Origin: Chamaelirium japonicum
Taxonomy: Eukaryota; Streptophyta; Magnoliopsida; Liliales; Melanthiaceae
DNA: 64,000 nt
Assembly: GCA_947650365.1 (NCBI GenBank)
Contig: CANTAL010000130.1
Location: 558,001-622,000, forward strand
Direction: 5' to 3'
This document shows positions 38,711 through 58,600 of this stretch, piece by piece (the first letter of the stretch is position 1; each line of letters opens with the position of its first letter). The notes below the pieces were generated by a model. The model saw only the letters and a program-made list of their open reading frames with translations. It did no database searches and had not been told where the DNA came from. The position numbers were made by a program, and so were the translations under genes.

Positions 38711-38715
38711 ATTAG
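38711..38715 (+). repeat. Target-site duplication ATTAG, left
   Basis: Five bases of satellite core directly before the outer 5' LTR; the same five follow the 3' LTR at 55649-55653. Confidence 0.9.
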
Positions 38716-38984
38716 TGTTGGTGGTAGTCAAAAACCACATATCTTGGATAGTATTGCAAACACCTGAGATAGAGTTCTCGAAGGAGCCCGTCCAGGAGTT
38801 GGAACCCTCGGAAGCCGAGCGTGCCCCCTTTCCAGCTCGCAAGGAGCTCGACCTCTCAGCCCATCAGAAGCTCGCCCCCACAGGGAGCTGGATGGACACC
38901 TTGTATCTGAGTGCAGCTCACTAAATCATCTTGACAGTGGAGCGAGATCCACATTGGGCTGAAGGGGCCCAAGGCCAAGAGCTC

Positions 38985-39275
38985 GCTAAGGAGCTCGCCC
39001 ACGCTCGCACAGGAGCTCGCCCAAGTTCGCTCATGAGCTCGCCTAGCTCGCGCATGAGCTCGCCTAGCTCGCGCAAGAGCTCGCCCATGTTCGCTCAGGA
39101 GCTCGCCTAGCTCGCGCAGGAGCTCGCCCAAGATCGCCAGGAGCTCGCCCCAGCTTGCTCAAGAGCTCGCCTAGCTCGCGTAGGAGCTCGCCCATGCTCG
39201 CTCAGGAGCTCGTCTAGCTCGCGCAGGAGCTCGCCCATGCTCGCTCAGGAGCTCGCCCAAGCTCGCCTAGACCCC
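38985..39275 (+). repeat. GC-rich minisatellite in the LTR, 21/22-bp units
   Basis: Alternating units of the types AGGAGCTCGCCTAGCTCGCGC (given as its 21-base pattern around GAGCTCGCC) and a 22-base form containing CCATGCTCGCTC. The 3' LTR has the same array at about 54870-55120 with one unit fewer. It lies in U3 upstream of the TATA box, so it could act as a promoter-proximal enhancer array; that role is inference. Confidence 0.85.
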
Positions 39276-39582
39276 TGTTTCTCGAAGAGGTTGCTCCCGC
39301 GAGGTCCGACTCTTGATAAATATGGACGAAAGGGCGGAGCAGTGCAGGCCGAGCCTGCCTTTGTTTTCTCCCTGAGACCGCCCAGACTTGAACATTCCAG
39401 AATAGCCACCTGGCCGCGACAAGAAAGATGCTCTTCCCCACTCAAACCGCCTAGCAGGCTTGACGACAGAATGTCAGGACGCGAGTACCAAGGTCTGTCA
39501 GACCCACGCGAGCCAGAACGTGGGGGTCTAGAAGGCCCTGGAAGAATCTCTACGTGTCGGGCCATCATAGGCCGCCAATGTC

Positions 39583-39588
39583 TATAAA
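39583..39588 (+). promoter_or_regulatory. LTR TATA box (outer element)
   Basis: TATAAA preceded by GCCGCCAATG about 10 bases upstream. The same site is at 55445-55450 in the 3' LTR. Transcription would start about 30 bp downstream, leaving a short R-U5. Confidence 0.7.
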
Positions 39589-39788
39589 TGCACACCCCCA
39601 AGCTCCAAAGTACAGGTTCGAATCCCATTTCCCTACCACTTTGGTATACAACAGCTCGCCGTTGTGCACCCGTGACTGACTTGAGCGTCGGAGGGTCTGC
39701 GCTCCTAAGGGAGCCAGCCGTTCTCATGTTCTCTTTTCTTTGTCTTGCAGGTGGCTCGCAAGGATCAGTGAAAAATCCCCCAAACATT

Positions 39789-39805
39789 TGGCACCGTCTG
39801 TGGGA
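39789..39805 (+). other. Primer-binding site, outer element
   Basis: TGGCACCGTCTGTGGGA begins two bases after the 5' LTR. It differs by one base from TGGCGCCGTCTGTGGGA, the form in the inner element and one commonly reported for Tat-lineage elements. The matching tRNA is not certain from this window. Confidence 0.8.
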
Positions 39806-39876
39806 TATTCGACTGGTTCCTGCGAGAACGCCCACGACCGCACGGTTGAACACTGTCGGCTCTCGTAAACCCAAAG

Positions 39877-41790
39877 ATGGCTCCGGCGATAAGGGGACGC
39901 AGGCGGACGAGGGCCCGTATGGGGTCTGTGCACAGCGAACCCCCCGCTGAGACTCCCCATCCCCTTGTCCCGCTCAGTGACCAGCTCCTGTTGGAGATGT
40001 TGGCCACCCAGCGGGCAATGATGAAGGAGTTGACGTGCTTGCGTCAGGCCCCGGCGGCGAGCCGGCGATCGGGACCATCGAGGCCCGCATCCCCTGCGCG
40101 ACCTCCCGTCTCGTCGCGTCTGCCCACGACCATACCAGCACGGCGAACTTCCCGTCCGGAACCCCCGGTTGAGAGGACGGCCGTGCGTGGAGCGAAGGAG
40201 ACCCCACTCACCAGGTTACAGAAGCTTGTAACCCAGCGGTCTAGCAACCAGGCGACCTCGCACGCGACCATCCCTCGCCGCCGCAGCCGGAGCGTCGACT
40301 CTGACGGGTCGGAGGCAAGGTCTCAAGAGAGGGATCGCGACCCGCACCATCGGCGACGAGGGAAAGAGCCCGCGGTGGCTATACCTTCCGAACCTCGAGA
40401 GGCGATGGCCTCCCATAGACCAACCGCCACGCTGAAGGGATCCGCAGGCGAGCAGCCAGGAGGCTGCCGATCGGTGGCCCCCGAGGGTCGCCGCGGGGTG
40501 GATCTGAACCTCCCTAGAGGGAGTGCACACGGCCGCCTAGGACCTGCGCAGCCGCCTTCGGGATTTCTCCCCGGGCACTGGCAGCGATCTAGTGCGCCAG
40601 TGGATTTACTGGAGGATCTCGCCGCCCACGGAGGAAGCTCGCCCTTCACCAGCGAGGTCCACCAAGGGGGTTTTCCGCACCATTGGACCCCCCAAAGTTT
40701 GTTTTGTTCGACGGGTCGCAGGATCCTGTTGACCACCTCTTGGCCTACAGAAAGCTTCTATTTTTCCGGGACCAGGACCACGTCTTGTGCCGAGCGTTCC
40801 CGAGCAGTCTGACTGGATCGGCGTTGAATTGGTTCCACAAGTTGTCATCCGGCGTGATTCCCGACTTTCCAACTCTCTCTAGGCTATTCCTGGAGCAGTA
40901 TCGCTGCAATAGGCAGCCCCCAAAGAGGATCGAGTCTCTGTTTACATTGGCCATGGGAGCTCGCGAAACGCTTCGGTGCTTCGCAACACGATTCCGAAGC
41001 GCCTACCTCGCTCTGGAAGACGCAGCGGGCCAAGATCGTACCGTGGTGAGTGCTTTCAGAAGCACCCTCCCCGAGGGGGGTAAGCTTCATGACGCCTTAG
41101 TGATCAAGGACCCTCGCACAATGGTTGAACTATTCGCGCTGGTCCAGCAACACATCAAGCTCGAAGATGTGGTGCTGGATCGGAAGGGAAAGGCAGTGGA
41201 GCAGCGACCTCCTCCGGTTCTGCGACCTCTTGTCGTTAAGGCCGTGGAGAGGAGGGAGGTGCCACTTACGGTAACTTTGCCCGGACCGTCCGCAGCTCCT
41301 GCAGTACAGCCCGCTGAAGCCCCCGCGGCGGCCGCTGGAAGGCCGGCGAACTGGCGCCTGCCTCCGAGACCCGGGGAGCGGGACTTCACCGTGCTGACCC
41401 ACTCGCCGGGACAAATCTTCCATCAGATTCGGAATGAGCCTTTCTTCCAGTACCCGCCACCCCTACAGGTCGGAGAGCCCGGCTCTACCGACAACTCGCG
41501 GTGGTGCGCTTTTCATCGAAGCCCTGGGCATCACACTAACAGATGCCGGGCTCTGAAGAACCACCTGGAGGATTTGGTCACCTTGGGGCACTTGAACCAA
41601 TTCATCTCGCCCCCGAGGAGGTTCGAGGTGATTCCAGAACGAGCCCCTCGGGAGGGAGATCGCCCAGGACTCGCGGAGCCCGCCTTACCTCCGCCTCCCC
41701 CGGGAGGACCGGCGATCTACCACACTATTAGCGGATGGCTGAGCGGCCCGAGATCCAGTAATGAAGCCCGCCGACGAGTCAGGGAGATGG
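39877..41790 (+). pseudogene. gag region of the outer element
   Basis: Starts soon after the primer-binding site. The first third is Arg/Pro/Ser-rich with a short Leu-rich segment (LSDQLLLEMLATQ). The middle, about 40.68-41.2 kb, is a Retrotrans_gag-type capsid domain (FDGSQDPVDHLLAY, GSALNWFHKL, FLEQY). Near 41505-41550 a zinc-knuckle-like pattern C-x2-H-x4-GH-x4-C (CAFHRSPGHHTNRC) is followed by LKNHLEDL, a layout typical of Tat-type gag. The product would package element RNA in cytoplasmic particles. The region is fossil, with few breaks; its central and later parts are openly readable. Confidence 0.85.
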
Positions 41791-41799
41791 AGCGGGCGC

Positions 41800-42377
41800 A
41801 GAAGGTATTTTCCGTCTCACTAACTCCTACTTTACTCCAAGCACTAAGGGTGGAAGCCCGCGATTTCCTCTGGTTTTCAGAAGATGACATGTCTGGGGTC
41901 GTCACGCCCCACAATGACCCCCTCGTCATACGCCTAATGATGGCTAACATCGAGGTGAGGCGAGCTCTGGTTGATTCGGGGAGCGCCGTTGACATCCTTT
42001 TTCTGTCGGCCTACCTGCGAATGGGGTTGAGACTTGCCGACCTGTCTCCCTCGACGAGCTCCCTCAGTGGATTCACCGGTGAGGTCGCCAAAGTGGCAGG
42101 AGAGATAACCCTTACCGTGACCGCGGGCCCGGAGGCTCGCCAAGTCCGCTTCGTGGTAGTGGACGGGAATTCCGCCTTTAATGCCATCCTTGGGCGGCCT
42201 TGGATAAGGCAGATGAAGGCAGTATCTTCACCCAACCATCAGGCCCTCAAATTCCCAACCACGAGCGGGGTCGTAGTTATTCGGGGGGATCAGGTAACCG
42301 CAACCAGATGCGAGCAGGATGTCCCTCACCTCATGGACATGGAGGTCGCCGAGGCCAAGAGGCCCGCACCCTCCTAG
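41800..42377 (+). pseudogene. Retropepsin-type aspartic protease region of the outer element
   Basis: Directly continues gag. It shows the active-site motif VDSGSAVD (codons near 41970-41993) with hydrophobic LFLSAYLRMG after it, and the second conserved stretch AILGRPWI near 42183-42206. DSG in place of DTG is usual in plant Tat-type proteases. The domain spans about 150 residues, normal for the family. It would cleave the gag-pol product inside the particle. Confidence 0.85.
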
Positions 42378-42467
42378 CAATTACTGCCCGATACGAGCGA
42401 GCTCCTGGGGAGCCCGCTGGGGGCCTCCTCGCCTAAGTCCCCTACTCCATCCTCGGGTGGGAGCGGT

Positions 42468-42690
42468 ATGGATCTTAAGTTGGAGGAAGGTCGCCTAGCA
42501 ACCCCCAAGAGAGGAAGTTTTCGGGTTGCCGAACCACTTCAAGAGATCGACATTGGCGGCAACGAGGGGCCGAGAATTGTTAGTCTCGGGACCTCGTTAA
42601 CCGAGGGCGAGGTCCTAGCCATAACCAACTTACTCAGGGAATACCGCGACGTATTCGCCTGGAGCTTCGCGGACAAAAAAAAAAAATTAC
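42468..42690 (+). pseudogene. Start of a pol region (pre-RT segment), outer element
   Basis: About 70 codons resembling the stretch before reverse transcriptase in Tat-type elements: EYRDVFAWSFAD is the usual lead-in to the RT domain. No RT, RNase H or integrase domain follows in this element; an antisense gene takes its place. Confidence 0.75.
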
Positions 42691-42720
42691 AAGGAGATAC
42701 AGCCTAAGCTGGGCCCGCGC

Positions 42721-44423
42721 CAGCACCCTCATCGTCGCCACCGCACTTCCTCTTTTTCGACCTTTCGGCCTTGTATTTCTCGATGGCGTCCAGCGCGCCC
42801 TTCTTGAGAAGCTCGTCCAGCTACGACTGGAGGCGCTCTCGCTGGGAGTTGAGGTCGCGAAGATGTGCCTCCTTCAGCATCGCGATCTCGTCCCGGGAGG
42901 CCGCCACCTGGCTGCGGAGCTCGACGATCTCTTTCTGGGCGGCCTCTTTGGCTTTGGTCGCCTCTTGTAGGTCTGCGAGGGTGCGGGCTTGGGCGTCCTT
43001 GACTGAGGCTAGCCCCATGGTGAGAGTGGCAGCCCGCTGGCGCAGTTGGGCAACCTCTGTATCAACAGAGGCGGCTTGCTGGCGCAACCGGTCCACCTCA
43101 GCTCGGAGCTCGCCGGATCGGTCCGCCTGGCGAAGCTGGTGGATGTGCTCGTCTACTCTCCTCTCCGAGCTGTGGAGAGTGTCATCGTATAGAGCAACTG
43201 TGTCCCCTGCGACACCAGCGACCTCATCGGCGAGGGCCCGGCTGACTCGCTCCACCTGCGCCAAGGTGAAACAGTTAGAGAAAGTCTTAGAAGAAATTTA
43301 GAACAAGAGAAGGATTCAAAGCGGAGAAGTGTGCAGGTAATCTTACCTCGAGGAGCCGGTTGATGAGGGCGATGTAGGGAGTCCGTGCGAAAATGTTGCG
43401 CCCTAGGATCTCCCGCGTGAAGTAGGGGACGCGCTCGGGGTCGCCTGAGGATGAGCCCGCCTGGCTCACCTCGTTTGCGGCAGCCGGGGAAGGCGCATCG
43501 ACGGCAGTGGCGGCGGGCTCGCCCCCTTGAGCGCCGGCGCCTCCTTCCTTGGTAAGGGGAGGCACGGCTGGTTCCGAGGCCTCCGAGCTGGAGATTGGAA
43601 AGTCGTCCAGGATGGCCCCCAGGTCCGGAGACCAGTAGACCAGCCCGCCAAGCTCCGGGAGAGGAGGAACCTCAAGAAGGGCAGGCGCGGGCTCGGGCGT
43701 GGGCGCACTGATAGCCTGCGCAGGCGCGGGCTCGGGCGCGGGCGCACTGAGGACAGGCGCAGGCGCGAGCGCGGGTTCGGGCGCAGGCGTGTTGGCAGGC
43801 GCGGGCTCAGGCGCGAGCTCGGGCACAGGCGCAGGCGCGGGCTCGGGGGCAGCAGGCGCGGGCTCGGGCACGGGCTCGGGCGCAGGCGCAGGCGCGGGCT
43901 CGAGCACGGGCTCGGGGGCCGTAGGTGCGAGCTCGGGCACAGGCGTGCTGGCAGGAGAGGGCGCAGGCGCAGGCACGGGCATGCTGGGAGCAGGCGCGGC
44001 CGGTGTTGGTGCCGCGCTCGGAGCAGGCGGAAGGGTTGAGCCCGCCGGAGCCGGTCCCTCGAAGGGCGGGGAAGGCCCCGCAGTTGCAGTCGCGGGCTCA
44101 TCTTCCGAAGCCCGCTCCTCGTCATCGGAGCTAGAGGTCGTGCTGAGATCATCGGCTGATCCCAAGCCCGCCTCCGCGAGGGCGGCCTTCCTCCGCTCCT
44201 CGATGACTCGCTGGAAGGCTTCACGAGCCTCCCGAACAATGGTGTCCTCTCCCGACGGGCGGGCTGGAGGAGTCTTTTTCTTCTTCGACTTCTTCCGTGA
44301 AGCGCCCTCCTCTGGGTTCATCACCGCAACAAAGAGAGTTTTAGTCAGGTCGCCCGGGAATCCGCGCATCAGCACTTCAGCCATTGGGGACTCCACTTCC
44401 GCCATGCTGAGAAGAAGCTCGAC
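42721..44423 (-). pseudogene. Antisense gene of the outer element, downstream part
   Basis: Minus strand, lying between the pol start and the inner element, which split this gene. Reading down the minus strand: a Lys-rich patch (KKSKKKK), an acidic Ser/Asp stretch, a long Pro/Ala/Glu-rich repeat of PAPEP type (about 43690-44030), an EVSQAGSSS segment, a conserved GRNIFARTPY block, a 91-bp putative intron, then about 140 residues of predicted coiled coil rich in Ala, Glu, Arg and Leu heptads. It belongs with the plant proteins often annotated as 'putative gypsy type transposon' (Transposase_28); this is from memory, not a search. Function unknown. Fossil, with some breaks. Confidence 0.7.
43256..43346 (-). 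other. Putative 91-bp intron in the outer antisense gene
   Basis: Donor GAG|GTAAGA and acceptor GGCGCAG|GTGGAG with a pyrimidine-rich run before it, phase 0, AT-rich against GC-rich exons. It sits immediately before the coiled-coil exon, as do the introns at 15502-15573 and 48429-48501. Confidence 0.7.
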
Positions 44424-44428
44424 GCGCG
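44424..44428 (+). repeat. Target-site duplication GCGCG, left (inner element)
   Basis: Five bases before the inner 5' LTR; repeated after its 3' LTR at 52645-52649. The insertion is in the antisense gene of the outer element. Confidence 0.85.
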
Positions 44429-44461
44429 TATGGGTGCAAATTTTGGTAAGGAGGTTGCCAG

Positions 44462-44618
44462 CAGCGGGACCCACCGGCCCTGCCTGGTGGGCCCCCGGAG
44501 ACCACAGCGGGACCCACCGGCCCTACCTGGTGGGCCCCCGGAGACCACAGCGGGACCCACCGGCCCTGCCTGGTGGGCCCCCGGAGACCACAGCGGGACC
44601 CACCGGCCCTGCCTGGAG
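44462..44618 (+). repeat. 43-bp tandem repeat in the inner LTR
   Basis: Three full units (starting 44462, 44505 and 44548) and one partial, each with GGGACCCACCGGCCCT and GGTGGGCCCCCGGAGACCA. The 3' LTR has the same array from 52037. The GGGCCC and ACCGG-type palindromes give strong secondary structure. It lies about 60-200 bp upstream of the TATA box. Confidence 0.9.
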
Positions 44619-44676
44619 GATCCCCAGATACGGCAGCAGAAACCGCCATTTACCCAGGAAATCCTCCCCAGAAGTC

Positions 44677-44684
44677 TATAAATA
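44677..44684 (+). promoter_or_regulatory. LTR TATA box (inner element)
   Basis: TATAAATA; the same site is at 52252-52259 in the 3' LTR. Confidence 0.75.
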
Positions 44685-45071
44685 GCAGAGCCTTCGAATG
44701 TAAAAGGATCGAACTCTCAGTTCTAAAAAACCAGAGCTCTGGGATTTCCAACTTCCCATCTTCCACCTCTCTTTAATCTTCTTTCTTTCGAAGAGATCAG
44801 AGTATTTTCGGTGATACTCGGCCTGTCGAGATCACTTCAATATAAGTGTTAGTGAATTCGGGTTGCTCCCTATAGCACGGAGACGTAGGCTTCGGCTGAA
44901 CTCCGAGATCACATCTCGTGTCAACAATCTCTCTGATTGCATCTCTCTGTTTACATATCAAAGACTTCAACTTCAATCAACAGATCGAACAACGATCTCC
45001 TCGAATCGAACCTTCAATTGACTGGTGCTGCGAGAGTCTTCGGGTCGGCACGAAGATTTTCCCCCACAGTT

Positions 45072-45088
45072 TGGCGCCGTCTGTGGGA
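45072..45088 (+). other. Primer-binding site, inner element
   Basis: TGGCGCCGTCTGTGGGA starts three bases after the 5' LTR. This sequence is widely seen next to 5' LTRs of plant Tat-type elements. Confidence 0.85.
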
Positions 45089-45225
45089 TCCGAGCAAAAA
45101 GTCGAGCTCTCTACTACTTGATCGGTTGAACCTACAACCGATCTTGATAGTCAAAACTTCCTCGCCCTCTCGGTTGATCAGACAACTGATCGAGTGGAAC
45201 TCTCGTTGCACCTTTCGCTCTCTGA

Positions 45226-46947
45226 ATGGCGAGGACAAAACATCAAGGTCAACCAGAAGGAAGTAACACTCAACAACAACCTCGTCCTGAGACTCGTTCA
45301 ATGAGTCAAAGGCTCAACTTCGGACAGCCCCTTGCTGTCCTCGAGATGGGGGTTCGTTCAGGGAGTGGCAAATCTGTCGATCGACCTATCGCCCACCCCG
45401 CGCGACAGTCGATTGGGCAAACAACACCCGCTCCTGCTGAAGACTCTCCATCAACCTACCAAATCTCTGCAGTCGACTTCCAGCTGCTCCAATTGGCAAA
45501 GCAGAATGCCACCCTCACTGCTGAGAGGGATGCTCTGAAGAAGGCAGCCTCCGAGGCTGGAATCGCTCTTCCGATCCCCTCCACAAGTGAGAGGGTCGAT
45601 CTTCCTCGATATTCCATCCACTCCGAACAACGGAGGTCAATGGGTACTACTGCCCTCGAGAGGATTCGACGTGATCCAACTCCCTCTGCTACCCCCTGGA
45701 AGCAGAGTGTTTGGGACTGTCTCGATGACGAGTCTTCTCAATCTTCTTCTGGCCGCAACTGTGACAAGAGGACACCTTCAAAACTCAACATACCAAGGAA
45801 GCACCAAATGAAAGGCGCTCCTTCAAAGAGTCGACTTTCCCCATCCATTCCACTTCAACGTGGACTTGGACCGGACCTTCGACACCGACTTCAACTGACA
45901 AATACTTCAATGCTTGAGCAAGACCTTGCGATCTTGCCTCTTGACCCACCTCTAGGTCGGGGACATGGTCGTAGAGATGGGTATTCATCCGCCGGACCTC
46001 TCCATCGAAGTCTCTTCGAGACAACATTTCCAAGGGGATAGAGAACTCCTATCCTCCCCAAATTCAACTGCGTCAGAGGAGATCCAACTCTCCATATACT
46101 TGCCTTCAAGCAAGCCTTGACACCATACGAAGAAGAAAACAACGTGCTTTGTCGCACTTTCGCCGGAAGTCTCGATGAGCCATCACTCGACTAGTATCAC
46201 AATCTCCGAGCTGGGTCCATCACCCAGTTCGATGTTTTGGCAAACCTTTTCGTGCAACATTATCAGCTCAATCTGAAGCCAGAAAAGAAGCTCGACTCCC
46301 TCTATCGGTTGAGGATGGGTGCTGACGAGACTCTCCGCAGTTTCACAAGAAGATTTCGCAACGAGCATGCTGCCCTCTCAGGGAGACATCTGGATGACGA
46401 AGCTATCATGTTATCTTTCCAGAACGCCCTCCGTTTCGATCTACACATCTACAACGACTTCATTCGCAATCCCCCTCCTTCCCTGGGTTTAATGTTTGAT
46501 CGAATTCAGAGGGAGATTGAGGTTGAAGATGATCAAGTGGCCCGAAAAGGGAGAGAGTCGAAGCGAAGGCCCTCGGAAAGAGAAGCTCCGAAGTATGCTG
46601 CCAAAGCTCACAACGCTGAGGCAGCAGCTCCCCCAGTCAACAAACGGTCAAAGAATGACGGGCGTCGATCTCCAACGAAGACCACTTTCACCGAGTGGAA
46701 TCTACCAATCGAGCAAATCCTCGATCGCATTCAGCACGAAGAGTTCCTTCGATGGCCTAATCCACTGCAGCCCGACACCAAGTTCACTGCAGATAAAACA
46801 GTCTACTGTGATTTCCATCGCAGTCATGGACATTCTACCGATCAATGCCACCGGCTAAAGTATCATTTGGAAGATCTGCTACGTATAGGACATCTCCAAG
46901 AATTTATCAAAGGCAGGCAAGATCATTCCGTCAAGCATCGACAGTGA
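45226..46947 (+). pseudogene. gag region of the inner element
   Basis: Begins MARTKHQGQPEG about 140 bp after the primer-binding site. The first part is Gln/Arg/Ser-rich with a helix-prone segment. The capsid-type part near 46.2-46.55 kb has LFVQHYQLNLKPEKKLDSL and a GADETLRSFTRRF block. It ends in the zinc-knuckle-like pattern CDFHRSHGHSTDQC near 46806-46850 followed by LKYHLEDLLRIGHLQEFI, the same layout as the outer gag (CAFHRSPGHHTNRC, LKNHLEDL). Fossil, few breaks. Confidence 0.85.
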
Positions 46948-47016
46948 AGATCTCCCTTGAGACTGACAGATCTAGGGGTTAGAGATGGTCAACTTCCAAG
47001 CAACCATTCGTATTGC

Positions 47017-47149
47017 CAGAGAACACAACAGCAAGAAACTAGCTCCCAACTGGGAAAGTCCGTACATAGTCAAATCAGGAGGAAGCAAAGGATCCTATCG
47101 ATTGCCACGAGCATGGAAAGCTAGATATCTCAAAATGTTCTATCCTTGA
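47017..47149 (+). pseudogene. Integrase C-terminal-tail-like stretch
   Basis: About 40 codons reading KLAPNWESPYIV, then GSYRLPRAWKARYLKMFYP and a stop. This matches the usual last residues of plant gypsy polyproteins (KLAPNWEGPY, GAYRL, LPRPWNA-HLKKFY). It follows gag almost directly, so nearly all of pol is absent in this element. Confidence 0.7.
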
Positions 47150-47265
47150 TGTAAATTCCAAGCTGAATAAAGATTGCTTTCAAATGTTCATCTTGGTGAT
47201 TCAAATTCTGGAGCAGTTTCAAATTATCTACATTCAAGTTCAAAGCTATCAGCATTCAAATTACT

Positions 47266-47700
47266 AGGTCGTTTAACAAGTTTGGGTGCTTGAGTTGCGA
47301 CTCGACCCCTTACAGGCAAATGTTAAACGGTTTCGGATTGTGCTACAACACAACCTTCAAGTCACTGGTCATTTAACGAGTTTGGGAGTTTGTGTTGCGA
47401 CACTACCCCTTACGTGCAAACGTTAAATGACTTTCAATTTCAATATCGTCTAACAAGTTTGGGTGCTTGAGTTGCGACTCAACCCCTCACATACAAATGT
47501 TAACGATTTCAAGTTGTGCTACAACACAACCTTCAATTTCAAATATCGTCTAACAAGTTTGGGTGCTTGAGTTGCGACTCAACCCCTCACATACAAATGT
47601 TAACGATTTCAAGTCGTGCTCCAACAAAGTTCAATTTTCAAGTTACTCAACAGTTTGGGTGATCGAGTTGCGACTCATCCCTTTACATTCAAGTGTGTAT
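47266..47700 (+). repeat. About 90-100-bp tandem repeats after the pol remnant
   Basis: Five diverged units, each with AACAAGTTTGGGTGCTTGAG, then TTGCGACTC, then CCCCT-ACA-GCAAATGTTAA. The third and fourth units (from about 47442 and 47541) are nearly identical; the first, second and fifth are older. It separates the sense coding part from the 3' end of the antisense gene, where a transcription terminator for both would be expected. I do not recognise it otherwise. Confidence 0.8.
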
Positions 47701-48428
47701 ATGTATTCAAATATTTCAATACCATCCAGAACACAGCATTCAAAGAGTTCAAACACAAGAGATTCAATTTTTAAACACCAAAAAGATCTTTTGATTATCA
47801 AAACTTGTCAAATACAATGATGAGCTGCTACATATCAAGAGTTTACAAGTGTAAACAACCAAGAAAAGGAAGAAATACATCAGGGCTTGGCTACGCTTGG
47901 AGCACGTGACTTTTCTCCTTCAGATTCACCACGAGGCTTGCTCGCAACCGAAGCTTTAGAAGATCGGACGCTGCTAACATGTTCCCTGAGTGCCTCTGCC
48001 GCTTTCTCGGCTGTTTCTTTGTAACTCTTGCATTCAGACAATGCATGCTCCAATGCCTTCTTGGAAGTCTCCTCCCTGGCAGTAAAAGCAGCATGTTGAG
48101 CAGCAAGACGTTCTTTCAGCTCCTTGATCTCGTTAGTGCGACCGCAGGACACGTCCTCAACCTTGGAGAGTCGATTCTTCAAGGATTCAAGCTCGTGACT
48201 CTGTGCCTCACAACGATCCTGCAGCCCCTTGATCTCCAGCTTCCCCTTGCGAAGATCCTCAATCTTGGCTTTGAGAGAGGTTTTCTTCGAAGTCAGGAGC
48301 TCTCTCAGCTCATCTCTCTCCGTGCTCACAGCCTTCAGTTCAGCTGTCAAACGAGATACCTCAGAGGCGGCCTCTCGTTCTCCTGCCTTCCTGGAGAGCT
48401 TGCTTGCAATTCTCAAACAGGCTGAGTT

Positions 48429-48501
48429 CTGCAAATAGACAAAGAGTTAGAATTATTCTGAAGATTCAACTCGAACAATTGATCAAAGCATATGCACATA
48501 C
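48429..48501 (-). other. Putative 73-bp intron, inner antisense gene
   Basis: Donor GTTGTG|GTATGTG and acceptor TTTGTCTATTTGCAG|AACTC with a good pyrimidine tract, phase 0. It lies directly before the coiled-coil exon. Confidence 0.8.
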
Positions 48502-48638
48502 CACAACTTCAAGCCGATCGAAGGCTTCTTCAAAAGTAGCTCCCGGAAGGTTGCAAAGCTTTCGGATCACGCTGGTCGAGTGGTTGATGTCAACATCACC
48601 CAAGCTCTTCATCTTCGGAGTCGAGCCAACAGGCGCAC

Positions 48639-48723
48639 CTGCAAGCAACAAGAGATCAAAGTGTTAGAATATTTTCAAGCTTCAAAGACAAGACAGCCAA
48701 TCAAGACAAGTTAGTACAGATAC
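48639..48723 (-). other. Putative 85-bp intron, inner antisense gene
   Basis: Donor CTTCAG|GTATCTG, acceptor TTGTTGCTTGCAG|GTGCGCC, T-rich inside, phase 1 on both sides. The exon between this and the next intron is about 137 bp. Confidence 0.8.
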
Positions 48724-49249
48724 CTGAAGCCTCGACTTGAGGAGCCTTTCCCTTTCCACGATCGGAGCTCTTACCCTTGGGGGTTGATTTCTCCTCGATA
48801 GGGGTTGGCTCTAGCAAGGGTTGAGGAGTAGCTTCACCAACCCGACTTCCTCTCTCCAAATGAGCAGGAGAGGGAACGTCTCGAGGAGGTGAAGCTCCCC
48901 CTTCGTCCTCGTGCCCGCTCGAATGATCGAGCCCTGCCACCATGGCAGCTACCTCTTCAGCCAGAGATCGTGAGGGGGGTGGGGGTTGTTCAACCTCCAC
49001 ACCCCCACTTGTAGTTGCCCCTTCCAGGTGGGGAATCTCGGGAGGTATCTGATCGAGGGGTGTAGGGTTGCTTCCAACCCCACCACTCCCCGATATCCTG
49101 ATCTTGAAGCGCAGGGGGTTCTTCTTCAATTCCCCGAAGTCATAAGTAGGAATCACCTTGGGGCCATCGCCCGTGGCGTCCATAACTCACTCCATCCTGC
49201 GAGCCTTACCCTCGTCTATGAGGATAGGCTGCGATTCCTCGTCAGCATC

Positions 49250-49345
49250 ACCAGTGGGGGTGGGAGGAATTTCTTCCTCGCCACCCCCATGTCCTTGACC
49301 ACCATCAGTGGGGGTGGGAGGAATCTCTTCCTCACCACCCCCATC
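49250..49345 (-). repeat. Tandem duplication in the acidic part of the inner antisense gene
   Basis: Two copies of about 60 bp sharing AGTGGGGGTGGGAGGAAT, each coding for an EEEIPPTPT-type motif on the minus strand. Confidence 0.8.
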
Positions 49346-50756
49346 TTCATCATCATCATCATCTCCATCTTCCCCGTCGCTGCCAGTGCCCTCTTCCTCC
49401 TCATCTCCGCCCTCCACCTCCCTCTCTACTTCCTCTTCAATTTCCTCATCCTTTTTCTTCTCATCCTCCTGCTGCTGCTTGGTGGGGATTTTCCTCTTCT
49501 TTGCTGGGCCTTGGCGAGGTATCACCAGTTTCTCCTCTGAGGGAAGTGCGCGCCTGGCTCCATAAGCCTTCTTCTCGAATCGAAGCCTTCTAACAATTTT
49601 TCCAGACTGAGGGTCCTCCTCGTAATCAGAGTAGATGACCTCATTGTCTTCATATCGAAGCTTCGATCGATGGAGGAGGTTGGCCTTGCCGTGTCGGACT
49701 GGGCAATTTGAGAATTGCTTCCAAGATCGGGTCCCATACGTCAACTCCAAGAAGAGGTTATCGAGGGCCCCTACTCGCTCTGGAGGCCAAGAGAGAGCTC
49801 CTCCTGTGCAGTACATGTCGGTCTCCTTGTGCACCTTGTATCGAGGAACCTCCGGAACAGATATAGGAGTCCAGGCACCCGATATCGACAACGGCCAGTC
49901 AGTATAGAGCTTGTCGGAACCAATGGTGTCGAAAATCGGGCGGAGGGCAGTGACACCTGTCAGATAGTAGAACGGGCTATCCTTCCTCCAGGCCCATCGG
50001 TAGTGATAAAAGAAATATCCCAGCTCGATTCGGGCTTCATCACCTTCAGGGATGCTGGAATAGCATTCCCTAAGTTCCTTCTGGAAGTCTGACTCTACGC
50101 GGCAGAAAGCGTAGATGATCCTCCAGGAGTTCCCAGTTACCTGCCCGGGACAGAGATCGGAAACGTTCAGCAGCCTCGCGGCGAAAGGAGGCAGTGGAAG
50201 GCGCAGTCCACAGTTGAGCTGGCCGATCGTGACGATAGTTCCCATCACTTGCTCCTTGCTCGCCCATGAAACAAAGACTGTCCGCCTATCAACGCCAAAA
50301 GCAGATAAAACCGGAAGCGCTGGTCGAGCCTTTCCCTCTGTGAAACATGACAGCAACTCATGCAGCTTCTCCCTCTTTGCATCTGTAAGCTTACTGCCGA
50401 TGTTGTACCCAAACTCAGGCTCCGCCTCCAAAGGTAGCTACGGGTAGAGAACAAACTTTGCTTTGGGGATCTGCTCTGGCCTTGATGGAGCTGAAGCAAA
50501 TCCAACTCCCTGGTGCCTCTTGCCCAGTTGGCCAAGCTCGATCAATTCGGCCCTGCCTTTGCCTCGGCCCTTCGGAGCAGAAGAGACCTCGACAACTTCC
50601 TTCCCCTTTCTCTTGGATGGAACAGCACTCTTCTTCGAACTGCCCGAAGATGCCATTTGACCGATCGAAAGGAAATGAACAAGAGATGGGAAGCAAAGAA
50701 TCTGGACTTCGAAAAATTTTCTGAAAGCGTGAGGCGAAAAATGACAGCAAGAAAAA

Positions 50757-50764
50757 CTTATATA
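50757..50764 (-). promoter_or_regulatory. TATA box of the inner antisense gene
   Basis: TATATAAG on the minus strand, about 100 bp before the ATG at 50656. A start site near 50730 would give a 5' leader of roughly 70-75 bp. Confidence 0.7.
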
Positions 50765-50796
50765 CCCGGGGTAAAACAGGCGCGCAAATCAAGAAA

Positions 50797-50845
50797 GACA
50801 CGTGTCTTCACCATATCAAATCGCGTGTTTTTGTAGGTACACGTG
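50797..50845 (-). promoter_or_regulatory. Two G-boxes upstream of the inner antisense TATA
   Basis: GACACGTGTC (50797-50806, a perfect palindrome) and CACGTG within ACACGTGGC (50840-50845). CACGTG is the binding core of plant bZIP and bHLH factors; ACACGTGGC is also the classic ABRE form. They are 35 and 76 bp upstream of the TATA box. Confidence 0.65.
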
Positions 50846-51109
50846 GCATCCATCCATAGCAAGCGCAAAACCAGACGAACAGTCAGGGCCAGACGAAGCG
50901 TCAGACCACCGATCCACTCAAACCACCAGACCAAGCAAACCACCGGTCCGAGTGAACCGGACCGCCGGTTCAATGTTACATTCAGGCAAACCGAAGATTC
51001 AGAGCAGAAAAAATCAAACTCCATCGATATTCAAGACTGCCAAAAGATCAAAGGAAAAGTGCAAGCTATACCACTTCCTCAAAAGTACAGGTTCAAGACT
51101 AACCTTGAC

Positions 51110-51890
51110 CGGCTGATTTTAGCCGAACAGTCAAAATTGACCGTTCGGTCAAAATCAACCGATCGGTCAATTTTCTACTAGATCAGGCGAAAAACCGAGG
51201 GTTTTTGCCGATCACCCAAACCTTGACCGGCTGATTTTAGCCGAACGGTCAAACTTGACCGTTCGGTCAAAATCAATCGATCGGTCAAAATTCCACTGGA
51301 TCGGTCAAAAAACCATGTTTTTTGATCGATCACCCAATCCTTGACCGGTTGAAATTGACCGTTCGGTCAAATTTAACCGATCGGTCAAATTTGACCGATC
51401 GGTCAAAATTGACCGATCGGTCAAAATCAACCGATCGGTCAAATTTCCACTAGATCGGTCAAAAAACCATGTTTTTTGACCGATCACCCAATCCTTGACC
51501 GGTTGAAATTGACCGTTCGGTCAAATTTAACCGATCGGTCAAATTTGACCGATCGGTCAAAATTGACCAATCGGTCAAAATCAACCGATCGGTCAAATTT
51601 CCACTGGATCGGTCAAAAAACCATGTTTTTTGACCGATCACCTAATCCTTGACCGGTTGAAATTGACCGTTCGGTCAAATTTAACCGATCGGTCAAATTT
51701 GACCGATCGGTCAAAATTGACCGATCGGTCAAAATCAACCGATCGGTCAAATTTCCATTGGATCGGTCAAAAAACCATGTTTTTTGACCGATCACCCAAT
51801 CCTTGACCGGTCGAAACTGACCGTTCGGTCAAAATTGACCGTTCGGTCAAATTTGACCGTTCGGTCAAAATTGGCCGATCAGCCTTTTTT
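51110..51890. repeat. 154-bp tandem repeat packed with GACCGATCGGTC palindromes
   Basis: Four regular units of 154 bp (the CATGTTTTTTG marker at about 51314, 51468, 51622 and 51776) preceded by a more diverged part. Each unit has several 12-bp palindromes GACCGATCGGTC and near-palindromes GACCGTTCGGTC, separated by A/T-rich spacers. It lies between the antisense promoter and the polypurine tract. It could be an upstream array for the antisense promoter or a structured 3' end of the sense RNA. Minus-strand frames here reading DRLILTDRS are repeat shadows. Confidence 0.85.
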
Positions 51891-51991
51891 ATACTAACAT
51901 TTCGATAAGCCTCTTTGTGCCTTTTCTAGACAGGGGGTTGTTGTTTTTTGCACCAAAATCCAAGCCAGCTAAAGTAGCCTCTAGCTAACTT

Positions 51992-51999
51992 GGAGGGGG
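51992..51999 (+). other. Polypurine tract, inner element
   Basis: GGAGGGGG, four bases before the 3' LTR; second-strand priming site. Confidence 0.75.
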
Positions 52000-52003
52000 T
52001 AAC

Positions 52004-52644
52004 TGTGGGTGCAAATTTTGGTAAGGAGGTTGCCAGCAGCGGGACCCACCGGCCCTGCCTGGTGGGCCCCCGGAGACCACAGCGGGACCCACCGGCCCTA
52101 CCTGGTGGGCCCCCGGAGACCACAGCGGGACCCACCGGCCCTGCCTGGTGGGCCCCCGGAGACCACAGCGGGACCCACCGGCCCTGCCTGGAGGATCCCC
52201 AGATATGGCAGCAGAAACCGCCATTTACCCAGGAAATCCTCCCCAGAAGTCTATAAATAGCAGAGCCTTCGAATGTAAAAGGATCGAACTCTCAGTTCTA
52301 AAAAAACCAGAGCTCTGGGATTTCCAACTTCCCATCTTCCACCTCTCTTTAATCTTCTTTCTTTCGAAGAGATCAGAGTATTTTCGGTGATACTCGGCCT
52401 GTCGAGATCACTTCAATATAAGTGTTAGTGAATTCGGGTTGCTCCCTATAGCACGGAGACGTAGGCTTCGGCTAAACTCCGAGATCACATCTCGTGTCAA
52501 CAATCTCTCTGATTGCATCTCTCTGTTTACATATCAAAGACTTCAACTTCAATCAACAGATCGAACAACGATCTCCTCGAATCAAACCTTCAATTGACTG
52601 GTGCTGCGAGAGTCTTCGGGTCGGCACGAAGATTTTCCCCCACA
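52004..52644 (+). repeat. 3' LTR of the inner element, 641 bp
   Basis: Starts TGTGGGTGCAAATTTTGG, ends CCCCCACA, followed by GCGCG. Almost identical to the 5' copy. Confidence 0.92.
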
Positions 52645-52649
52645 GCGCG
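52645..52649 (+). repeat. Target-site duplication GCGCG, right (inner element)
   Basis: Matches 44424-44428. Confidence 0.85.
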
Positions 52650-53742
52650 GATCCTCGGGCTCGACGAAGGAAATGCGACGTCGCCGAGGCTCCGGGACTG
52701 GGGCCCTCGGAGAAATGAGAGAAAGAGAGGTCGCCTGACCTGTGGCTGCTTCGCGGGTTGGTGGCGGCGGTGGCGCGACATCCTCCTCGTGGAGCATCTC
52801 GAGGGTGTCCTTGTCGGCGACCTGGATGGGGGAAGCCCGCTTCTTCCCCTTCTTCGCCAAGGTCCCCGCAACGGAGGTCACGGCAGCAGGCCGGGAGACC
52901 GCAACCTTCTTCCGCATCACCTTCTACCGGGTGGTGATGGTTCCGGTCCGTAGATCCTTCCAGAGAAAGGCGAAGTCCGGCGGGAGGACCTTCTCGAGGT
53001 TCGACCCCCGAGGAAGTCCAGAATCGCCTCGTCGAGCGATCTTTCGCGGGCTGCGGCGATGCACTTCTTACCCTTGGGCCGGTATTTCCGCGATCTCCTT
53101 GAGGACAGGGAGAGGCGGTCTGCCAGGAAGAGAGGGGACGCCGACTTGAGGACCACGCCAGTCGCCGTCGATCACGAACGGATACTATTTCCAGTACCGG
53201 TCCTTGTTCTCAACGGCGGTGAACGAAAGTACCTCGCCGGTGCGACCAGTGAGATAAAACTGGCCGCAGCCCGCCTCAATGAAGGCGGTCCCTGGCTTGA
53301 GGAACCACTTCTTCAGGAGGTAGGCAAGGGGGATCCTCACGTTGAGGGCTTCCTCAATTCGAGAAAGCCCGTAGAGGATCCCCTATGAGTTTCCTGGAAG
53401 CTGAGCAGGGCACAAGCCCGCCAGTTCCAGTAGCTCGCTGGCAAGGTGGTTCAGGGGTAGCCGGAGCCCTGACCAAATCTGCCCCACGGAGATCGCCGTA
53501 CCGGAGAGCGGCCTCCCCGAGTGCGGGAAGGGCAGGATGGCGAGCTCCTGAGGAATGTTCACCGCGGAGCGTAAGCTAGCAGGGATCGGCGCCCCGCCGA
53601 TGTCATTAAACCAGACAACGGCGGGCTCCCTTGAGGGAACCTCCTCGCTGCCAGGTTCAAGCACCGAAATTGGGGCGACGTTGAGAGGTTCCTCATGAGA
53701 GGAAGCGGCAGCAGCAGAAGAAGCAGCAACAGAAGAAGCCAT
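52650..53742 (-). pseudogene. Antisense gene of the outer element, upstream part
   Basis: Minus strand from ATG at 53742 (MASSVAASSAAAASS), on the far side of the inner element from the downstream part. It shows a Ser/Ala-rich start, then GLRLPLNHLASELLELAGLC and PAQLPGNS, clearly homologous to GLRLPLPPFAARLL and PGQVTGNS of the inner antisense gene. A basic MRKK segment and Pro-rich PPPPPTREA follow. Same Transposase_28-like family by memory. Fossil: more breaks than the inner copy, as expected for an older element. Confidence 0.7.
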
Positions 53743-53848
53743 AAGAGCAAGGGGGTGTGAGCGAGCTGCGAGCTGCGAGCTGAAAGCAGAAGCAGAAGGA
53801 GAAGGGAGAGCTATTTTTCACGCGATGGTAAAAATCGTCCCCCTTCCC

Positions 53849-53857
53849 CTATTTATA
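53849..53857 (-). promoter_or_regulatory. TATA box of the outer antisense gene
   Basis: TATAAATAG on the minus strand, about 110 bp before the ATG at 53742, the same spacing as in the inner element. Confidence 0.7.
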
Positions 53858-53967
53858 GGCAAGTGAGAGACAGGTGAATCGACCCGCAGTTAATGCCCGA
53901 GCGCGCGTGGCGAGGCGACGTGACGGCAATCGAAGCGACAGCTCGCTTCTCTCCAATCGTCGAGCGC

Positions 53968-54054
53968 CACGTGGACCACGCGTGGAAAAAGCTGTGCCGG
54001 CGCCGACACTGTTCTTTATTGACAGAAAAAGAGCGAATAAGGAGGAGACACGTG
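53968..54054 (-). promoter_or_regulatory. Two G-boxes upstream of the outer antisense TATA
   Basis: GCCACGTGG (core 53968-53973) and GAGACACGTGTCTC (core 54049-54054, a 14-base palindrome). The second contains the GACACGTGTC also found in the inner element. Positions are about 110 and 190 bp upstream of the TATA box. Confidence 0.65.
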
Positions 54055-54182
54055 TCTCACGCCGATCAGGATCTCATGATGAGATTCGCTGTATCAGCAT
54101 TGAGCCTCGCGCCGCAGTTAAGGTGAAGCGACCGTTGGAGATTTGGCGTGATACCCAAGTCACAAGACCGCTCGCGGCAGGT

Positions 54183-54470
54183 GCCCGCAGCTCGCCCGAC
54201 GTAGACCCTGACCCGTGTGACAAGCTCGCACCGGAAGGAGATCGCTCGTGGCTGACGCTCCCGGCCCGCCCAGCGTTGGAAAAGTACTGAGAGTCAAAGC
54301 TCTCGACGCAGATCGCTCCCGGCTGGAGCCCGCAGCTTGCCCGACGCAGACCCTGACCCGTGTGGCAAGCTCGCACCGGAAGGAGATCGCTCGTGGCTGA
54401 CGCTCCCGGCCCGCCCAGCGTTTATGAAATACTGGCAGTCAAAGCTCTCGGCGCAGGCCGCCCATGGCTA
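54183..54470 (+). repeat. Two 145-bp direct repeats before the outer 3' LTR
   Basis: Copies start at 54183 and 54328, each with GCCCGCAGC, a TAGACC/CAGACC CTGACCCGTG stretch and GGAAGGAGATCGCTCGTGGC. They lie between the antisense promoter and the polypurine tract, the same relative place as the 154-bp array of the inner element. Confidence 0.8.
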
Positions 54471-54586
54471 CAATCTCCGTCCCGCCAGAAAACTGTTGCA
54501 GCAGACATTGATATCAAGCACATTACCAGGGATAGGAGCTCACTAAGACTCCTGAGCTAGAGTCGAGTTTCCTCGATCACTCCCTC

Positions 54587-54595
54587 AGGAAGGGG
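54587..54595 (+). other. Polypurine tract, outer element
   Basis: AGGAAGGGG, three bases before the 3' LTR. Confidence 0.75.
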
Positions 54596-54598
54596 TAA

Positions 54599-55648
54599 TG
54601 TTGGGGGTAGTCAAAAACCACATATCTTGGATAGCATTGCAAACACCTGAGATAGAGTTCTCGAAGGAGCCCGTCCAGGAGTCGGAACACTCGGAAGCCG
54701 AGCGTGCCCCCTTTCCAGCTCGCAAGAAGCTCGCCCTCTCAGCCCATCAGAAGCTCGCCCCCACAGGGAGCTGGATGGACACCTTGTATCTGAGTGCAGC
54801 TCACTAAATCATCTTGACAGTGGAGCGAGATCCACATTGGGCTGAAGGGGCCCAAGGCCAAGAGCTCGCTAAGGAGCTCGCCCACGCTCGCACAGGAGCT
54901 CGCCCAAGTTCGCTCATGAGCTCGCCTAGCTCGCGCAGGAGATCGCCCATGTTCGCTCAGGAGCTCGCCTAGCTCGTGCAGGAGCTCGCCCAAGATCGCC
55001 AGGAGCTCGCCCCAGCTTGCTCAGGAGCTCTCCTAGCTCGCGCAGGAGCTCGCCCATGCTCGCTCAGGAGCTCATCTAGCTCGCGCAGGAGCTCGCCCAT
55101 GCTCGCTCAGGAGCTCGCCCAAGCTCGCCCAGACCCCTGTTTATCGAAGAGGTTGCTCCCGCGAGGTCCGACTCTTGATAAATATGGACGAAAGGGCGGA
55201 GCAGTGCAGGCCGAGCTTGCCTTTGTTTTCTCCCTGAGACCGCCCAGACTTGAACATTCCAGAATAGCCACCTGGCCACGACAAGAAAGATGCTCTCCCC
55301 CACTCAAACCGCCTGGCAGGCTTGACGATAGAATGTCAGGACGCGAGTACCAAGGACTGTCAGACCCACGCGAGCCAGAACGTGGGGTTCTAGAAGGCCC
55401 TGAAAGAATCTCCACGTGTCGGGCCATCATAGGCCGCCAATGTCTATAAATGCACACCCCCAGGCTCCAAAGTACAGGTTCGAATCCCATTTCCCTACCA
55501 CTTTGGTATACAACAGCTCGTCGTTGTGCACCCGTGACTGACTTGAGCGTCGGAGGGTCTGCGCTCCTAAGGGAGCCAGCCGTTCTCACGTTCTCTTTTC
55601 TTTGTCTTGCAGGTGGCTCGCAAGGATCAGTGAAAAATCCCCCAAACA
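54599..55648 (+). repeat. 3' LTR of the outer element, 1050 bp
   Basis: Starts TGTTGGGGG, ends CCAAACA, followed by ATTAG. It has the same minisatellite, TATA box (55445-55450) and U5 as the 5' copy, with one 21-bp unit fewer. Confidence 0.92.
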
Positions 55649-55653
55649 ATTAG
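55649..55653 (+). repeat. Target-site duplication ATTAG, right (outer element)
   Basis: Matches 38711-38715; the satellite core resumes in register after it. Confidence 0.9.
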
Positions 55654-58600
55654 AATGGATCGTGCGAATGAATTAGAATGGATCGTACGAATGAATTAGA
55701 ATGGATCGTGCTAATGAATTAGAATTGATCGAACGAATGAATTAGCATGGATCGTGCTAATGAATTAGAATGGAACGTACGAATGAATTAGAATGGATCG
55801 TGTGAAAGAATTAGAATGGATTGTATGACGAATGAATTAGTAAGAATGGATCGTACGAATGAATTAGAATGGATACATTCGTGCGAATGAATTAGAATGG
55901 ATCGGACGAATGAATTAGAATGGATCGTACGAATGAAATAGAATGGATCGTACGAATAAATTAGAATGGATACATTCGTCCGAATGAATTAGAATAGATC
56001 ATACGAATGAGTAAGAATGGATCGTACGAATGAAATAGAATAGATTGTACGAATGAATTAGAATGGATCCTATGAATGAATTAGAATAGATCGTGTGAAA
56101 GAATTAGAATGGATTGTATGAATGAATTAGAATGAATTCGTACGATCCATTCGAATTCATTCGCACGATCCATTCTAATTCATTCATACGATCCATTCTA
56201 ATTCATTCATACAATCCATTCTAATTCTATCACACGATCCATTCTAATTCATTCGTAGGATCCATTCTAATTCATTCGTACAATCTATTCTATTTCATTC
56301 GTACGATCCATTCTTACTCATTCGTATGATCCATTCTAATTCATTCGGACGAATGTATCAATTCTAATTTATTCGTACGATCCATTCTAATTCATTCGTA
56401 CGATTCATTCTAATTCATTCGTACGATCCATTCTAATTCATTCGTCCGATCCATTCTAATTTATTCGCACGAATGTATCCATTCTAATTCATTCGTACGA
56501 TCCATTCGCACAATCTATTCTAATTCATTCATACGATCCATTCTAATTTATTCGCACGAATGTATCCATTCTAATTCATTCAAACGATCCATTCTACTTC
56601 ATTCGTACTATCCGTTCTAATTCACTCATGCGATCTATTCTAATTCATTCATACGATCCATTCTAATTCATTTGCACGAATTAATCCATTCTAATTCATT
56701 CGTACGATCCATTCTAATTCCTTCGTACGATCCATTCTAATTCCTTCGTACGATCCATTCTATTTCATTCGTATGATCCATTCTAATTCCTTCGTACGAT
56801 CCATTCTAATTCCTTCGTATCCATTCTAATTCACTCATACGATCCATTCTAATTCATTCGTACGATCCATTCTAATTCATTCGCACGAATGTATCCATTC
56901 TAGTTCATTTGTACGATCCATTCTAATTCATTCGTACGATCCATTCTAATTCTTTTTTACGATCCATTCTAATTCATTCGTATGATCCATTCTAATTCAT
57001 TCATACGATCCATTCTAATTCATTCGTACGATCCATTCTAATTCATTCGCACAAATGTATCCATTCTAATTCCTTTGTACGATCCATTCTAATTCATTTA
57101 TACAATCCATTCTAATTCTTTCACACGATCCATTCTAATTCATTCGTACGATCCATTCTAATTCATTCGTGCAATCCATTCTATTTCATTCGTACGATCC
57201 ATTCTTACTCATTCGTACGATCCATTCTAATTCATTCATACGAATGTATCCATTCGTATGAATGAATTAGAATAGATTGTACGAATGAATTAGAATGGAT
57301 CGTACGAATGAATTAGAATGGATCGTACGAAGGAATTAGAATGGATCGTACGAATGAATTAGAATGGATCGTACGAATGAATTAGAATAGATCGTACGAA
57401 TGAATTAGAATGGATCGTACGAAGGAATAAAAAAGGATCGTACGAATGAATTAGAATGGATATATTCGTGCAAATGAATTAGAATGGATCGTATGAATGT
57501 ATTAGAATGGATCGTATGAGTGAATTAGAATGGATCGTACGATTGAATTAGAATGGATTGTATGAATGAATTAGAATGGATCGTATGAATGAATTAGAAT
57601 GGATCGTATGAATGAATTAGAATTGATCGTACGAATGAATTAGAATGGATCGTGCGAATGAATTAGAATGGATCGTACGAATGAATTAGAATGGATCGTA
57701 CGAATGAACTAGAATGGATACATTCGTGCGAATGAATTAGAATGGATCATACGAATGAATTAGAATGGATCGTACGAATGGATTAGAATGGATCGTACGA
57801 ATGAATTAGAATGGATCGTGCGAATGAATTAGAATGGATCGTGCGAATGAATTAGAATGGATCGAACGAATGAATTAGAATGGATATATTTGAGCGAATG
57901 AATTAGAATAGATCGTAGGAATGAATTAGAATGGATCATACGAATGAATTAGAATGGATCGTATGAACGAATTAGAATGGATCGTACGAACGAATTAGAA
58001 TGGATCATATGAACAAATTAGAATGGATCGTATGAATGAATTTGAATGGATACATTCGAGCGAATGAATTAGAATGGATCGTACGAATGAATTAGAATAG
58101 ATCATAGGAATGAATTAGAATGGATCGTGCAAATGAATTAGAATGGATACATTTGTGCGAATGAATTAGAATGGATCGTGCGAATGAATTAGAATGGATC
58201 GTACGAATGAATTAGAATGGATATATTTGAACGAATAAATTAGAATGGATCATACGAATGAATTAGAATGGATCGTACAAATGAATTAGAATGGATAGTG
58301 CGAATGAATTAGAATGGATCGTACGAATGAATTAGAATGGATATATTCGTGCGAATGAATTAGAATGGATCATACGAATGAGTAAGAATGGATCGTACGA
58401 ATGAAATAAAATGGATTATACAAACGAATTAGAATGGATACATTCGTGCGAATGAATTAGAATGGATCGTATGTACGAATGAATTAGAATGGATACATTC
58501 GTGCGAATGAATTAGAATGGATCGTACGAATGAATTAGAATGGATCGTGCGAATGAATTAGAATAGATCGTACGAATGAATTAGAATGGATTGTACGAAT

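Follow-up and report, generated by a model that had tools for sequence, protein, structure and literature searches.

Two nested retrotransposons and their antisense genes

The 64,000-nucleotide stretch of the Chamaelirium japonicum genome (1.52 Gb) analysed here, which we call the window, corresponds to positions 558001-622000 of contig CANTAL010000130.1 and contains, at 38716-55648, two long terminal repeat (LTR) retrotransposons nested one within the other. Element A spans this whole block, and element B (44431-52644) is an insertion inside A. Both carry a long, intron-containing gene on the minus strand, antisense to gag, and element B is inserted within this gene of element A. Comparison of sequences makes it very probable that A and B represent two families of Tat-type, Retand-lineage Ty3/gypsy elements, each of which retains the antisense accessory gene of the lineage, TRP28, in the stretch that runs from the site of pol to the 3' LTR; this confidence concerns what the gene is, not its role.

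The antisense gene of element B runs from an ATG at 50656 to a stop codon ending at 47880 and has three exons and two introns. Exon 1 (48724-50656, minus strand like all parts of both genes) contains the TRP28 domain, a basic cluster resembling a nuclear localisation signal (NLS) and an acidic stretch. It is followed by intron 1 (48639-48723, phase 1), exon 2 (48502-48638), intron 2 (48429-48501, phase 0) and exon 3 (47880-48428), with a coiled-coil-like end. A promoter-like TATA box, TATATAA, lies on the same strand at 50758-50764, 108 nt ahead of the ATG. In element A the gene extends from an ATG at 53742 to a stop ending at 42704, with one recognised intron, and its first exon has been cut in two by element B, leaving a 5' part with the TRP28-like domain (52645-53742) and a charged, Pro-rich 3' part (43347-44430). 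The intron (43256-43346, phase 0) and a coiled-coil-like exon 2 (42704-43255) with a KKRK motif near the C-terminus complete the gene; the corresponding TATA box, TATAAATA, is found at 53850-53857 on the minus strand, 115 nt ahead of the ATG. Neither copy is intact: the B gene has two in-frame stops, both in exon 1, and the A gene, if read straight, has four stops in its first 300 codons and one in exon 2, besides the nested insertion.

A first-pass annotation of the window, made from the sequence alone, had proposed that these two minus-strand genes share a homologous first domain, and this was borne out. BLASTP aligns the first domains of A and B with 47% identity over 45 aa (E 6e-11), and the profile-profile comparison with hhalign gave a probability of 98.7% (E 4e-16, 109 columns), so that the shared first domain is real; the antisense genes of the two families are 31-34% identical. 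The first domain of B matches the Pfam family PF04195, Transposase_28 (TRP28), described as "Putative gypsy type transposon", with E values of 9.5e-5 for the window copy and 1e-5 for a relative, both just under the curated cut-off. Against this cut-off of 26.2 bits, the window copy scores 23, the relative L069 26.1 and the duplicate of the block on contig C1, in the genome search, 30.0. Our three first-look genome searches yielded 8038, 5979 and 9393 candidates with 150 scored in each, and 137 of the 150 scored among the 5979 candidates matched PF04195. The A protein has been assigned to TRP28 only through its hhalign likeness to B. As for the coiled-coil ends also proposed in the first-pass annotation, Pfam matches do point to them, all below cut-off, and the label "coiled coil" is therefore to be taken as putative. 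The ends of the two proteins agree in their architecture and in the phase-0 intron that precedes them; homology between them was not demonstrable (hhalign probability 2.5%, E 0.018, with six A and 11 B sequences).

Splice sites, reading frame and selection

Copies of the antisense gene from throughout the genome, compared with one another, show purifying selection on it in the A family as well as in the B family. For B we have used 14 B-type copies including that of the window (one of them, L087, only partly covered), and both introns keep GT..AG in all 14. The donor GT of the A intron is kept in 9 of 11 A-type copies and the acceptor AG in all 11. Indels were counted by pairs of copies, and the figures are thus pair counts rather than independent events. 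Those that are not multiples of three amount to 8 of 166 in exon 1 of B (the same number as the pairs that include L070) and none of 16 in exon 3, with no indels at all in exon 2, while in A they are 43 of 511 in the tail of exon 1 and none of 30 in exon 2. The values for the introns are 54/54, 50/50 and 81/107.

The ratios of non-synonymous to synonymous substitution rates (dN/dS) follow the domain structure. In B (36 pairs of nine copies) exon 1 has a median of 0.10 in its TRP28 half and 0.31 in its tail, exon 2 one of 0.285 and exon 3 one of 0.15. In A the first 900 nt give a median of 0.28 (30 copies and 433 pairs, two of the 435 possible ones giving no value) and exon 2 gives 0.17 (11 copies, 55 pairs); L027 and L036, which have no ATG motif, were left out of the A set. 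The exception is the Pro-rich tail of exon 1 in A, with a median of 0.59 (55 pairs, 11 copies). The first-pass annotation had been prepared to give up the idea of a gene if the frame did not recur in other copies or if both kinds of change were equally frequent. The frame does recur, and apart from that tail dN is well below dS.

The frame itself is also better preserved than its alternatives. Exon 1 is complete in 13 B-type copies, and nine of them read through it with no internal stop, three of these nine ending at the edge of the fetched sequence, so that copies with an intact reading do exist. Over the first 900 nt of the A gene, 30 copies were compared (two of which, L085 and L086, had been picked for a long open frame); 14 of them keep the gene frame open, and none of the three frames of the opposite strand is open in any of the 30. 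The opposite-strand frame that shares third positions with the gene has a similarly low dN/dS, as it must, yet has many more stops except in the short exon 2 of B. Mean identity between B copies is 0.87-0.90 in the exons and 0.82-0.85 in introns and flanks.

Promoter-like signals, NLS-like clusters and the retention of introns

Of the gene-like features announced in the first-pass annotation, the introns, the start codon and a promoter-like TATA box were recovered in the copies, with the splice sites kept and the TATA box at a fixed distance. A TATA[AT]A motif is located 107-116 nt before the ATG in 26 of 27 A-type copies, where base shuffling of the same stretch would give 0.76, and 105-125 nt before the ATG in 13 of 18 B-type copies, with 1.22 expected from shuffling; these counts pass over two of the 29 A loci and 12 of the 30 PF04195 loci, which had no ATG motif. 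The NLS-like basic cluster of B is found near residue 385 in all 12 readable copies, a number that excludes L070 and L087, and the KKRK close to the C-terminus of A in 10 of 11. These clusters may act as nuclear signals.

The introns have been retained on a large scale. Probes for the exon-intron junctions, with up to three mismatches, found 663 matches for B and 349 for A, and the reversed controls none. Exon-exon junction probes gave zero matches genome-wide for both families, the zero for B being a partial one, since the exon-3 side of its probe fits copies of the AACTC type best. The presence of intron-bearing junctions with no exon-exon counterparts is consistent with copying through the sense RNA, in which the introns cannot be read.

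Loss of pol and an amplified pol-less branch

Neither element in the window has both a complete gag and a complete pol, and they are thus not autonomous. The fate of pol could be followed thanks to two relatives that still possess it, L087, with B-type LTRs (95% identity), and L088, with A-type LTRs (85-88%), each about 12 kb long judging from the LTR spacing. In L087 reverse transcriptase (RT), RNase H (RH), a second RNase H (RVT_3/RNase_H) and integrase (INT) appear in this order, which is also that of the pieces of L088, and in both relatives the antisense gene lies downstream of pol. The notion that the gene stands where pol would be, or has taken its place, was consequently rejected: pol has been deleted and the gene is located downstream of its former position. 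Element B still keeps a remnant of the integrase C-terminus (about 47015-47149, plus strand; tblastn 59% over 51 aa, E 1.4e-13), the other parts of pol being deleted. The pol of the B relative, used as a query on the window, matched the integrase tail alone (47015-47143) and found nothing convincing in element A, where the junction left by the missing pol is at 42675-42680; some 4.1 kb are present at this point in L088.

The two deletions differ in how widely they are shared. With the B junction as a query, at least 549 of the 551 bases were matched by each of the 40 copies scored, out of 5077 candidates. A deletion common to all of these copies places B in an amplified pol-less branch. Of the 40 matches scored for the A junction, those of the window and its duplicate alone cross it and the other 38 end there, so the loss of pol in A is private as far as the scored matches go. 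Among the pol-less copies of the B branch, six of the 40 (that of the window and L069 plus L092-L095) were followed downstream, and the antisense gene was found at the expected distance in all six. Over the whole coding sequence the 15 pairs that they form all have dN/dS values of 0.14-0.26.

Besides these there is a gag-only element of a 6.1-kb class, L089 (C3:33310600-33316100), with related, B-type LTRs, a gag frame of 573 aa and an integrase remnant (E 8e-19). It also has tandem repeats, which resemble the ones in the element A LTRs at about 80%, and the LTR spacing reveals four further LTR pairs of 6.0-6.1 kb, candidates for the same class.

Structure of the elements and lineage

Element A is bounded by LTRs of 1071 bp (5', 38716-39786) and 1050 bp (3', 54599-55648) and by a perfect target site duplication, ATTAG/ATTAG, of the 5 bp typical of Retand. 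Its plus strand carries a frame for gag and protease at 40683-42377 (Retrotrans_gag E 1.5e-7, above cut-off; Asp_protease_2 E 0.0013, below it). The LTRs of element B are at 44431-45068 and 52006-52644, flanked by GCGTA/GCGCG, which agree at only three of five positions. Its gag (45226-46947) is an interrupted frame, made up of 45226-46041 and 46237-46947; tandem repeats of about 100 bp (47253-47696) lie between the pol remnant and the antisense gene, and arrays of 118 and 154 bp (51101-51880) upstream of the gene, adjoining the 3' LTR. The LTR pair of A differs by 27 substitutions in 1050 aligned bases (2.57%) and that of B by three in 638. At the plant substitution rate of 1.3e-8 per site per year the insertions would be roughly 1 million (A) and 0.2 million (B) years old.

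Some other features of the surroundings can be mentioned. Element A sits within a 23-bp tandem repeat array of the GAATTAGAATGGATCGTACGAAT type with many inverted blocks (flanks 30000-38715 and 55649-64000), and its LTRs contain a short repeat array of the GAGCTCGCC type (38980-39267 and 54863-55132), similar to the repeat that fills the internal region of L089, in spite of the B-type LTRs of the latter. A second copy of the nested block is found on contig C1 at about 28838573-28855087, the matched pieces being 97-100% identical; it is either a segmental duplication or redundant assembly.

The first-pass annotation had regarded the two elements as unrelated families with strongly different LTRs and gag. 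The LTRs do indeed differ, with no similarity between A and B except for two matches of 10-14 bases. The gags, on the contrary, are homologous (32% over 245 aa, E 1e-37), and this together with the common RT-RH-second RNase H-INT order of the pol-bearing relatives led us to reject the idea of unrelated families. The second RNase H, placed after RH and before INT and described for Ogre and Retand as archaeal-type (PMC6317226), is present in one pol-bearing relative per family, where it had to be scored because the window copies have no pol. The other marks of Retand are an antisense TRP28 open reading frame (ORF) between pol and the 3' LTR, recognised in B by Pfam and in A by profile comparison with B, and the length of this region, which in B measures about 4.9 kb between the remnant, ending at 47149, and the 3' LTR at 52006, inside the 2.9-6.6 kb given for Retand (PMC11963269).

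Possible role of the antisense protein

A way to make sense of these observations is to suppose that the gene has a promoter of its own, is transcribed against gag and pol, and gives a transcript that is then spliced. Its product would be a nuclear, probably multimeric protein, with the TRP28 part binding to nucleic acid or chromatin and the coiled-coil-like end serving for multimerisation, and it would aid the element that encodes it, most likely through regulation or protection of the expression or the nuclear step of the cycle. The introns would be readable only on the antisense strand and not be removed from the genomic (sense) RNA, which would allow them to survive each round of retrotransposition. 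We hold a role as a nuclear regulator or protector of the element to be slightly less likely than not. More tentative is the idea that the antisense factor is needed by its own element or favours it, and that the B branch, after the loss of pol (which autonomous relatives could supply), kept gag plus the antisense gene and was selected for both. If this were true, the TRP28 protein would be, like gag, partly cis-preferring, for example by shielding its own copies from silencing or by guiding its own complex in the nucleus.

Several observations weigh against our reading of what the gene is and how it works. The first domain of A remains under the PF04195 cut-off (13.4 of 26.2 bits and E 0.097 for L016; no match for L085 and L086). 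Two structure predictions for the antisense protein gave a mean predicted local distance difference test (pLDDT) of 34.2 and 38.7, too poor to support any role, and a profile search of solved structures returned three weak matches (best E 0.12), none related by sequence. Over the first 900 nt of the A gene 16 of the 30 copies have stops, and 476 of 776 pairwise indels are off triplet (the window copy being one base out of frame in this count), indicating that many A copies have decayed there. Values of dN/dS for single pairs reach 1.1 in A and 0.9 in the exon-1 tail of B, and any such ratio between repeats blends the selection that acts while a lineage is active with the neutral decay of copies once inserted. 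The junction probes gave no retrocopy of a spliced antisense mRNA, and both splicing and the use of the antisense promoter stay predictions. Finally, no TRP28 gene was found in the gag-only L089 (best chance match E 0.23), from which it follows that the antisense gene is not strictly needed in cis.

This last element also bears on the alternative that survives best, although we consider it unlikely, which is that the gene travels in the pol-less branch as a passenger, its low dN/dS deriving from selection in the pol-bearing relatives and its fresh copies arriving by recombination. Besides the existence of a gag-only copy with no such gene, one of the pol-less copies offers an example of the exchange required. 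At the gag end and in the integrase tail L092 (C5:33528360-33531300, beside C5:33527250-33527800) is 98% like B, but over the TRP28 half the likeness falls to about 71%, a mosaic that suggests recombination swapping antisense genes between subfamilies. In L092 and one other copy, the dS of the TRP28 half (about 1-2.9) is far higher than the divergence seen in the introns and the 3' flank (0.15-0.23), a pattern expected of recombination. What argues for selection inside the branch is that two collinear pol-less copies with the same junction differ by 48 changes of which 26 are at third codon positions (dN/dS 0.26), and that the low ratios extend to every pair of the six pol-less copies.

The possibility that the antisense RNA rather than a protein is what matters, either as double-stranded RNA or by interference with gag-pol transcription, the open frame being incidental, appears improbable. 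Such roles of antisense RNA have been discussed for the antisense ORFs (aORFs) of plants and are known for yeast Ty1 (PMC7264820, PMC12786077). The bias towards third positions, the triplet indels in most exon parts and the dN/dS of 0.10-0.31 in the B frame, however, show selection on a protein, and the B introns and flanks diverge somewhat faster than the exons; an RNA may have an additional role beside the protein. Recent capture (transduction) of a host gene, which would account for the full eukaryotic layout with introns and promoter-like TATA box, and whose inverse orientation would keep the introns of a captured genomic gene, is the least probable of all, given that the gene, at 31-34% identity in two families with no LTR similarity, must be old, that candidates number in the thousands in each first-look search, and that TRP28 is described as having no similarity outside transposable elements (PMC11963269), a statement for which we have made no separate host-gene search; an ancient capture is possible as the ultimate origin.

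For the question of what the protein does, the facts that can be used are the introns kept in hundreds of copies, the selection at the protein level in two divergent families and the persistence of the gene in an amplified pol-less branch. This branch, with the gene, and the gag-only copy lacking it amount to a natural experiment on the role of the protein, and the pol-less, antisense-gene-bearing branch under selection is what we regard as most worth following.

Comparison with known antisense genes

Antisense TRP28 ORFs are a regular component of Retand elements. They were reported in 61 of 63 Retand clusters by a survey that also describes non-autonomous members and, in the large region between pol and the 3' LTR where these ORFs lie, tandem arrays (Vicient 2025, PMC11963269), and Transposase_28 was detected in 23% of Retand elements in another study (PMC6317226). 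All these traits are shared by the elements described here, and the Pfam domain is matched by B and, in a divergent version well below the cut-off, approached by A. DNA binding by TRP28 is presented in the survey as a prediction only, and two papers, the survey among them, call what the antisense gene does unknown (PMC11963269, PMC7264820). The gene23 of Grande in maize and teosinte is alike by its description in that it is an antisense gene downstream of pol with its own promoter and a nuclear protein, GENE23 (PMC7264820). Likened by description in the same source are, in other species, ORF4 of the Silene latifolia Retand, which has Transposase_28, and the antisense ORFs of rice RIRE2, similar to ours in their antisense position. 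The HBZ gene of the human T-lymphotropic virus (HTLV), named in PMC11963269, is also an antisense gene of an LTR element and codes for a nuclear regulatory protein, an analogy for which we claim no sequence relation.

In view of these precedents, the unusual character that the first-pass annotation saw in the full gene-like set is only partly upheld; what stands out are the conserved introns and the selection in the pol-less branch. The Retand survey made use of ORF Finder (PMC11963269), whereas the genes described here have one or two conserved introns, and one of the two families is an amplified branch that has lost nearly all of pol. The word "intron" is absent from the main text of PMC11963269 and PMC7264820, and among the literature matches listed, a scope outside which the specialist aORF and gene23 papers lie, no title describes introns in such antisense genes; we do not claim that they are new. 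Our finding is a further case of the known antisense TRP28 genes, to which it adds the conserved introns and the selection in a pol-less branch.

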